In this document: positions 1-2,118 of the stretch, in pieces
Layout of the letters: each line of letters begins with the position of its first letter
How positions within the stretch are numbered: the stretch's first letter is position 1
Source of the DNA: Burkholderiaceae bacterium
GTDB taxonomy: Bacteria; Pseudomonadota; Gammaproteobacteria; Burkholderiales; Burkholderiaceae
Reading direction: 5' to 3'
Length of the DNA stretch: 45,486 bases
NCBI GenBank assembly: GCA_947449305.1
Contig: CANFRA010000007.1
Location: 1-45,486 of the forward strand
The notes under the pieces: model-generated
Database searches by the model: none
Seen by the model: only the letters and a program-made list of their open reading frames with translations
What the model was told of the DNA's origin: nothing
Program-made: the position numbers and the translations under genes

Positions 1-104
1 CTGCTCAACAAAATCAAGTGAATCATTGCTGCAAGACCAAACAGAAAAATACCTTGAACAACCATTGATCGCAACGGATCATACAGTTTCCAAATTCTCC
101 ACAT
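1..104 (-). CDS. pufA: Light-harvesting complex 1 alpha polypeptide (partial, runs off the window start)
   Basis: Minus-strand translation from ATG at 104: [34 protein letters not shown]...; typical LH1 alpha N-terminus ([10 protein letters not shown]) and TM helix with BChl-ligating His (AAMIHL). Below the ORF-track length cutoff. Confidence 0.93.
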
Positions 105-113
105 AATCTTCTC

Positions 114-338
114 CTAATTTAAGTAAGACATAAAGCCATAGACTGCCGACTTCGTACCATCGATAAGCGATTTTTCTTCAGCTCCTGGAAGCCAAGAACT
201 CCACTTATTGGGCAAAATCTGGGTAAATAAAGAAATAGCAAAGCACACTAAAAAACACAAAATAAAAATAAGATTGAAAGTAATTGAATCCTCTCTGATC
301 ATATTTTTTTCTTTGCTCATAACGTGACTAATTTTCAT
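114..338 (-). CDS. Small single-TM protein of unknown function inserted between pufB and pufA
   Basis: 74-aa ORF, SD-like AGGGGA just upstream of ATG at 338, 28 nt after pufB stop and 9 nt between its stop and pufA start. One hydrophobic helix (FNLIFILCFLVCFAISLFTQIL), no His in the TM, positively charged N-terminus. Confidence 0.8.
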   Translation of the reverse strand: MKISHVMSKEKNMIREDSITFNLIFILCFLVCFAISLFTQILPNKWSSWLPGAEEKSLIDGTKSAVYGFMSYLN

Positions 339-365
339 TTCATTCCCCTAAGATTTGGTCCGATT

Positions 366-518
366 TCAATGGAACCAAGGACGCCAAGCCCAAACCAAAA
401 TATGGGCCACTACAGCAATTGAACTAAAACCAACTAAACCTTGGACGTACAACTGGTGAAACTCCTTGGCTTCGTCATCAGTAAGGCCAGATATTGAACC
501 TGTTCTGTGGTCGCTCAT
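366..518 (-). CDS. pufB: Light-harvesting complex 1 beta polypeptide
   Basis: 50-aa minus-strand [55 protein letters not shown] beta signature (LT..EA.EFH, AH..VW.WRPW). Preceded by AAGGAGG. Not in the ORF track because of length. Confidence 0.95.
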
Positions 519-661
519 AACCAATTACCTCCTTCAAAAATAGCCTTGCGGCCGTTATCGCGCTTTACCCGCGCGACATGGGCTGTAGCGTACGGCATGC
601 CACATTCTGCTTCCAACAAATCAAGTGACTTGTTGTACTTAACTGTTATCAAGAAGGCCAT
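515..661 (-). CDS. Putative 48-aa protein between bchZ and pufB, unknown function
   Basis: Minus-strand [51 protein letters not shown]; start overlaps bchZ stop (TAATG) and stop overlaps pufB start (ATGA). Not in the ORF track because of length. Confidence 0.6.
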
Positions 662-2118
662 TAAGCTTCAACCTCTTCAATGATTTCTTTGCAAGAAGAC
701 TTCACTCTTGCCGCTGTAACTCTTTCTTCGCCCGCTTTTTCTGCATCCTGCTCTACACGATCGCGCATCTCTTTAGCAGCAGAAATCTGAATCAGTACTG
801 GTCTCGTTTTAATGAAGTCAGCTACCAACTTCTGAGCATCTTGATCCCAAGGCAGCGAATTAGAGCGATAAGTACGGGTGAGTGAAGCATCAACCTTGTC
901 CATATCAGTGCCTAGTGGCAGGATATAAAAGAGTGCGTCGAATAAACCATTACAAAATTCTTGAATGATGTAGGTTGCGCCGGCATAGCCCATAAATGGC
1001 GTACCAGTATGACGACGAATAATGGCGCCAGGGAATGATGATGGAATATACGATGCCTTGCTACCGGTCTCAGCTAAATACATTCTCTCGTTGTAGCTGC
1101 CAAACATCACAAGCGGAGGCTTCTCTTTAGTGAGCTTGCGCACATCTTGATTATTGGTTTTTTCACCAGGCTTTCTAGGAACAGCAAAGCTACAAGGCAA
1201 TCCCATCTCATCAGATAAGAAATGGCGTATGCCCCGGGTATAAGTTTCATTCGCAACAACTGCATAACTTGCAGTACTAAAAAAATCTTGAGTCACTGAA
1301 CGCCATAAGTCCCAGATTGGCTTAATAGTGGTGTGTTTCTCACGTTCAATAAATGGTTCTGGATCTAACCCAAGCAATTCGCCAAGCTTACGCAAGAATT
1401 GAGTGGTGCTATGTAAACCGAGAGGTGCTTGCAGGTAGGGGCGCTCTAAGGCTTCACACAGCATGCGACCAAACTCACGATACATACAGATGTTGACATC
1501 TGCATTGACCAAGTTCTCAACATCGGCTAAATGAGAGCCTAGTGGGAAGACCATATTAATTTCAGCGCCAATGCCCTCTGCTAAGCGGCGAATCTCTGCA
1601 AGATCGCTTGGCATATTGAAGGTGCCGTAGCATGGTCCAATAATATTGACGCGTGGCTTCTCGCCTTCTGCCCTTGGTTTGCGTTCTGGAATCTTGCGAG
1701 TGCCGTATTCAGTCCACAACCAATACATCGCACGATTAGCGCACTGCCATTGATCTTCATCGATGGTTCTTGGTAAGAAGCGAGCAATATTCATACCCTC
1801 TGGAGTAACGCCACCACCAATCATTTCTGCAATAGAGCCTGTTACCACTACCGCTGGCAGATCAGGATCTAAAGTAGCATGTGCGCGCTTCATCGCACCT
1901 TCTGTACCTTCGCGACCTAACTGCTCTTCCTCTAAACCAGTCACCACAATTGGCAACTCGTGTGGAGGCAAGGCGTCGGTGTAATGCAGTACTGAAGTGA
2001 CCGGTAGGTTTTCACAGCCCACTGGGCCATCAATCACTACTTGTAAGCCTTTGATAGCAGTAAATACATAGACTGCTCCCCAATATCCACCAGCGCGATC
2101 GTGATCAATGACGAACAT
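661..2118 (-). CDS. bchZ: Chlorophyllide a reductase subunit Z
   Basis: 485-aa nitrogenase-like protein ([55 protein letters not shown]), directly after bchY. Confidence 0.96.

Follow-up and report, generated by a model that had tools for sequence, protein, structure and literature searches.

ORF74, a conserved histidine-less homologue of LH1 beta encoded between pufB and pufA, is a candidate PufQ-like protein of Burkholderiales phototrophs

The pufB-pufA interval and its setting

The window (the whole stretch of 45,486 nucleotides analysed here) lies at the end of contig C7, part of a 1.48-Mb draft genome. Its close relatives in the named collection belong to Polynucleobacter. Genes on the minus strand run in the order bchX-bchY-bchZ, pufB, ORF74 and the start of pufA. 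No PufQ-like gene lies between bchZ, at 661..2118 (-), and pufB, at 366..518 (-). The latter encodes a 50-residue LH1 beta polypeptide (PF00556, E 7.8e-12; NF040862, E 4.5e-23) that keeps the transmembrane histidine, and has a real ATG at 518 with a strong Shine-Dalgarno (SD) sequence, AAGGAGGT. Only the 5' part of pufA, encoding LH1 alpha, is present at 1..104 (-), because the assembly breaks within the puf operon and the contig end cuts the gene. A complete 68-residue reading is found on G000:C43, which continues pufA-pufL-pufM-pufC-crtI-crtB; window positions 1-149 and G000:C43:12798-12946 share 149 identical bases.

ORF74 itself, at 114..338 (-) with the stop included, comprises 74 codons plus a stop and sits within the 261-nt interval from the pufB stop (366) to the pufA ATG (104). 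Its start is preceded by TTAGGGGAATGAAATG, and its SD region, TTAGGGGAATGAA at 339..358 (-), has a predicted anti-SD duplex energy of -6.4 kcal/mol. The protein has one hydrophobic helix, which contains no histidine. In an AlphaFold2 model of modest confidence (mean pLDDT 64.5) helices span residues 14-41, the transmembrane (TM) segment, 43-49 and 58-73. The topology is not readable from the charges of the flanking segments, the mean net charge in the positive-inside test being 0.18 for the N-terminal and 0.29 for the C-terminal flank. The possibility that a 48-residue ORF at 515-661, in the bchZ-pufB gap, is a displaced PufQ was rejected; this ORF has no family match, overlaps the RNA leader described below and is probably not a gene.

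The predicted SD duplexes of the window have energies of -13.0 kcal/mol for pufB and -7.3 for pufA, and over 76 loci the medians are -8.7 for pufB, -7.7 for ORF74 and -7.3 for pufA. The ORF74 site is about equal to that of pufA, being the weaker of the two in 40 of the 76, which suggests that more ORF74 protein is made than a regulator would need. A strong hairpin (-27.4 kcal/mol, z -3.4) lies between pufA and pufL at L003:7600-7700 (-), G000:C43, and is likely to stabilise the 3' end of the pufB-ORF74-pufA mRNA; such loops are described in PMC5725709 as stabilising the pufBA message in Rhodobacter. This places ORF74 within the abundant portion of the operon mRNA; in Rhodobacter PufQ is encoded in front of that portion.

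Upstream of pufB, at 519..600 (-), is a structured RNA leader consisting of a 5' hairpin, a CGCGC/GCGCG hairpin and a GGCC-GNRA-GGC hairpin, followed by the SD. The GGGN loop of the second hairpin is predicted to pair with an upstream NCCC to form a pseudoknot. In an alignment of 26 diverse leaders (A4) 86% of cells pair, against 36-45% with slid partners, a comparison that favours the proposed structure because it was drawn from one of the aligned sequences. Compensatory changes are present and the covariation score is 0.37, against 0.235 in shuffles (reached in 0 of 500). Rfam gave no match for the window, the leader included. Judged by its pairing and covariation, the leader is a conserved, pseudoknot-containing RNA.

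ORF74 in the Burkholderiales

A search with the ORF74 protein gave matches in 15 of 61 related genomes, and within the order the family profile had a match in 49 of the 400 genomes searched. The reaction-centre (RC) family PF00124 was found in 49 of the same 400. A strong ORF74 match is present in 45 of these 49, or 45 of the 48 that are evaluable, the RC genome G334 having been left out as its contig ends within pufL. The three RC genomes without ORF74 (G104, G223 and G254) belong to a single genus, g65, and gave only weak matches, which came from pufB and from an ORF upstream. The sole ORF74 match without an RC hit, in G308, is in a bchZ-pufB-ORF74-pufA array that runs into the contig end. 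Among the named betaproteobacterial loci 76 of 80 are fully readable, and these have pufB, 13-66 nt, ORF74, 9-16 nt and pufA in that order. ORF74 is thus nearly universal in Burkholderiales phototrophs.

Selection on the protein is evident from 13 same-length copies of the Polynucleobacter group, for which dN/dS is 0.17, compared with 0.07 for pufB and 0.05 for pufA; ORF74 is under purifying selection. Across the family W46, W49, P51, G52, Y67 and S71 are invariant. A chance ORF is ruled out by this dN/dS together with the occurrence of the same protein in the pufB-pufA interval across the order, and ORF74 is a real puf gene of long-standing conservation. The synteny and dN/dS comparisons that the preliminary description had called for therefore bear out its central observation, a real co-operonic single-helix ORF that lacks a TM histidine. 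Its statement that pufB and pufA are established neighbours does not hold for the betaproteobacteria, where ORF74 intervenes, and the ORF is no peculiarity of the window.

The gene has also been reported before and so is not itself new. RD2015_RS05155 of Roseateles depolymerans, listed as 'ORF74' in the transcriptome paper PMC10037100, lies between pufB (RS05150) and pufA (RS05160). It is the same gene as that of the window, with 74 residues, the same interval and the same family (L118:5959-6183). Citing Suyama et al. 2002, that text gives pufB, ORF74 and pufA as co-transcribed in the major 1-kb puf transcript, and it lists ORF74, pufA and pufB as the three transcripts most reduced in a sigma-factor mutant. 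The gene carries no name there, and the text searched gives neither homology nor function. In the literature on ORF74 and the puf operon, where PMC10037100 was the sole match, no family assignment was found. What is new here is the homology to LH1 beta with loss of the histidine, the homology to a protein of the PufQ position, and the finding that no sampled locus has the two forms together.

Relationship to LH1 beta and to the PufQ-position protein

The single ORF74 protein could not be assigned by searches of Pfam, NCBIfam and the PDB; only the family profile gave an assignment. Among PDB entries this matched LH1 beta chains (8z81_B, E 2e-15; 7xxf_B, E 2.8e-13), a homology that the preliminary description had overlooked. 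Profile-profile alignment with hhalign against the long-tailed alphaproteobacterial betas gave a score of 94.7 and a probability of 99.2%. In 200 control profiles, made by shuffling columns within the N-terminal, the TM and the C-terminal part each on its own, the score was 15.3 +/- 4.1 with a maximum of 33.6, so that none reached that of the real pair. The two profiles stay in register along the helix and on into A(H/Q)xLxxxWRxWLPG. Helix length, F-x-x-IF..SF and the spacing of this motif are shared with LH1 beta (PufB, PF00556 / NF040862), and the long-tailed betas also align over the tail. In contrast to LH1 beta, the EAxEFH N-terminal motif is lost and the TM histidine that ligates bacteriochlorophyll (BChl) is missing from all 93 ORF74 proteins, the column being Gln in 67, Leu in 7, Ser in 4, Thr in 4 and other residues in the rest. 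ORF74 also forms a separate clade and is always additional to a normal pufB. PF00556 gave no match for ORF74, and the best NF040862 score among its relatives was 23.6 bits, below the cut-off of 61. LH1 betas with histidine that a search of the phylum returned from alphaproteobacteria were set aside as true betas and hence not members of the family. On these alignments ORF74 is a distant homologue of LH1 beta in which the BChl-ligating histidine is never kept.

The ORF74 profile also matched a small protein encoded directly upstream of pufB, in the place of pufQ, in several other proteobacteria. The two families align with a score of 70 (69 in reverse) and a probability of 98.2%, compared with 11.5 +/- 2.4 for the controls, and none of 200 shuffles reached the score in either direction. 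LH1 beta aligned with the PufQ-position family with a score of 47.7, above all shuffles. Homology of ORF74 to the protein of the bchZ-pufB interval in proteobacteria other than Rhodobacter is clear from these scores. The PufQ-position protein differs from ORF74 in having Arg (10 of 10), not Gln, at the beta histidine column, while ORF74 keeps the beta-like WRxWLPG. In a tree of 59 proteins ORF74, the PufQ-position proteins and LH1 beta form one clade each; the tree rests on few columns and is rooted only at its midpoint. By profile comparison, then, ORF74 is a third family of a group of single-helix proteins that also contains LH1 beta and the PufQ-position protein. A divergent ORF74 in G087 (L164:2709-3008) lies beside pufB in the same slot, where the contig ends. 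Its C-terminal ending, SLFDGVRKAANSVIPLMFM, is intermediate between the usual ORF74 ending, SLFGGVKAAVYTFMSHL, and that of the PufQ-position proteins, SVFGEAKAAANKVLPFAFM.

The relationship to canonical PufQ is less firm. PF05398 (PufQ) matched neither ORF74 nor any of three relatives at E<=10, had no match in the window's genome, and scored one PufQ-position protein at 15.4 bits, below the cut-off. Against the PufQ of Rhodobacter the hhalign probability was 22-45%, with 3 of 200 and 1 of 200 shuffles reaching the score, so this match is suggestive. Because PF05398 is without a match and the Rhodobacter score falls in the upper tail of the shuffled ones, homology is claimed to the PufQ-position protein and not to PF05398. 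ORF74 resembles PufQ and the PufQ-position protein in being short, with one TM helix and a conserved C-terminal amphipathic segment, and in belonging to the puf operon. Its gene lies downstream of pufB, unlike that of PufQ in the bchZ-pufB interval. On plasmid pTs485 of Candidatus Thiodictyon syntrophicum the bchZ-pufB protein (L191:2486-2710, WP_100923003.1) is annotated as 'hypothetical'; it matches the ORF74 HMM with 35 bits (E 1.7e-9). The authors of PMC5944118 call a Thiodictyon puf-operon protein PufQ. This is likely to be the same protein, though not proven, because the locus tags of the paper and the record differ. The review PMC8877833, in contrast to the finding of this protein in Thiodictyon, states that Chromatiaceae lack pufQ.

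The two forms have a complementary distribution. When the PufQ-position HMM was run on 1.5 kb upstream of 69 ORF74 loci it found pufB itself and a PufQ-type gene in none, and no ORF74 was found between pufB and pufA in the PufQ-position loci examined. No sampled locus has both. Genus g65 (L156, L157 and L158), the sole sampled RC-bearing Burkholderiales genus without ORF74, has the upstream form instead, with MNINAQQGIQIDGQRHHLKKRDERLFQAIFLVSFPVFLVVVLTTRLLPVANESKKQTSILGEASNKARSTLAMALMD between bchZ and pufB. Some phototrophs apparently have neither form, among them the loci with a very short bchZ-pufB gap. Sphingomonadales are described as being without any pufQ (PMC3176799), so a PufQ-type protein is not indispensable for all phototrophs.

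Possible role of ORF74

Among the readings offered in the preliminary description, the one with the best support is that ORF74 is a relocated, divergent PufQ-like protein: the PufQ-position homology and the complementary distribution speak for it, while the PF05398 match is absent. We give about an even chance to ORF74 being such a photosystem-biogenesis factor built on the LH1-beta fold. The wider proposal is more tentative, namely that ORF74 and the PufQ-position proteins are ligand-less, beta-derived biogenesis factors and that ORF74 is the betaproteobacterial replacement for PufQ, encoded within the pufBA message and influencing both the flux of tetrapyrroles and the assembly of LH1. On the even-chance reading ORF74 would have descended from a beta-like polypeptide that lost its BChl-ligating histidine, and in Burkholderiales phototrophs it would substitute for the protein of the pufQ slot, moved to the pufB-pufA interval. 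Synthesised alongside LH1 beta and alpha from a stable pufB-ORF74-pufA mRNA, it would insert as one TM helix, its amphipathic C-terminal helix resting at the surface of the membrane, and couple pigment supply to assembly of LH1 and the RC. According to PMC5725709, PufQ binds ferrochelatase and directs porphyrin to BChl, and its deletion gives low BChl, all in Rba. sphaeroides only. The function and partners of ORF74 are modelled on PufQ by analogy. It might dock to enzymes of the tetrapyrrole or BChl pathway as PufQ does to ferrochelatase, or sit transiently in the beta position beside nascent alpha, holding no pigment, unlike beta, or do both; contact with alpha or the growing ring is suggested by the likeness to beta.

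It is possible, if rather doubtful, that ORF74 is instead a structural accessory subunit of RC-LH1, a histidine-less beta-like chain that occupies one or a few places within the LH1 ring or next to it. As such it might open a quinone gate or fix the size of the ring in the manner of PufX, protein-W or the Blastochloris gamma subunit. These share with ORF74 a small size, a single helix and a place in the RC-LH1 complex or its gene set; their gene positions differ from that of ORF74, and at E<=10 the ORF74 profile found none of them in the PDB. In favour of this reading, the closest solved relatives of ORF74 are LH1 beta chains, and the gene lies inside the LH1 message with an SD comparable to that of pufA. 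A betaproteobacterial RC-LH1 structure already containing ORF74 was sought in the PDB and not found. PufL has no close betaproteobacterial RC among its PDB hits, the best being from Dinoroseobacter shibae, so such a subunit could have been missed. The dN/dS values argue against a place in the ring, whose subunits are far more conserved (0.05-0.07 for pufA and pufB), as does the mutual exclusion of ORF74 and its PufQ-position homologue, which has no reported structural place in RC-LH1.

Some plant antenna sites have glutamine as a chlorophyll ligand. Since Gln dominates the histidine column of ORF74, often with the beta-like Ala retained four positions earlier, a pigment-binding antenna variant of beta in which Gln ligates BChl in place of histidine was considered. 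This is improbable. The column is Leu, Ser, Thr, Val, Tyr, Lys or another residue in 26 of the 93 proteins, members of the window's own genus among them, so that no ligand is generally conserved, and no second alpha accompanies ORF74. Marginally more improbable still is a mainly translational or spacer device that sets the pufB:pufA ratio, with an incidental product, as has been proposed for Rhodobacter pufK. Its position and the short, tight spacers (9-16 nt to pufA) would suit such a device. The product, however, is conserved as a protein across families of the order, at the invariant residues given above and by its dN/dS, and is homologous to that of a free-standing upstream gene.

The betaproteobacterial RC-LH1 may hold an overlooked subunit or assembly partner, and a common origin with LH1 beta, if true, would explain the long-suspected link of PufQ to pigment. 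ORF74 is the probable stand-in for PufQ, a photosystem-building factor seemingly missing from Burkholderiales phototrophs, and is conserved in nearly all of them, including the abundant aerobic phototrophs of freshwater. Deletion methods exist for a cultured carrier of the gene, Roseateles depolymerans (PMC10037100).
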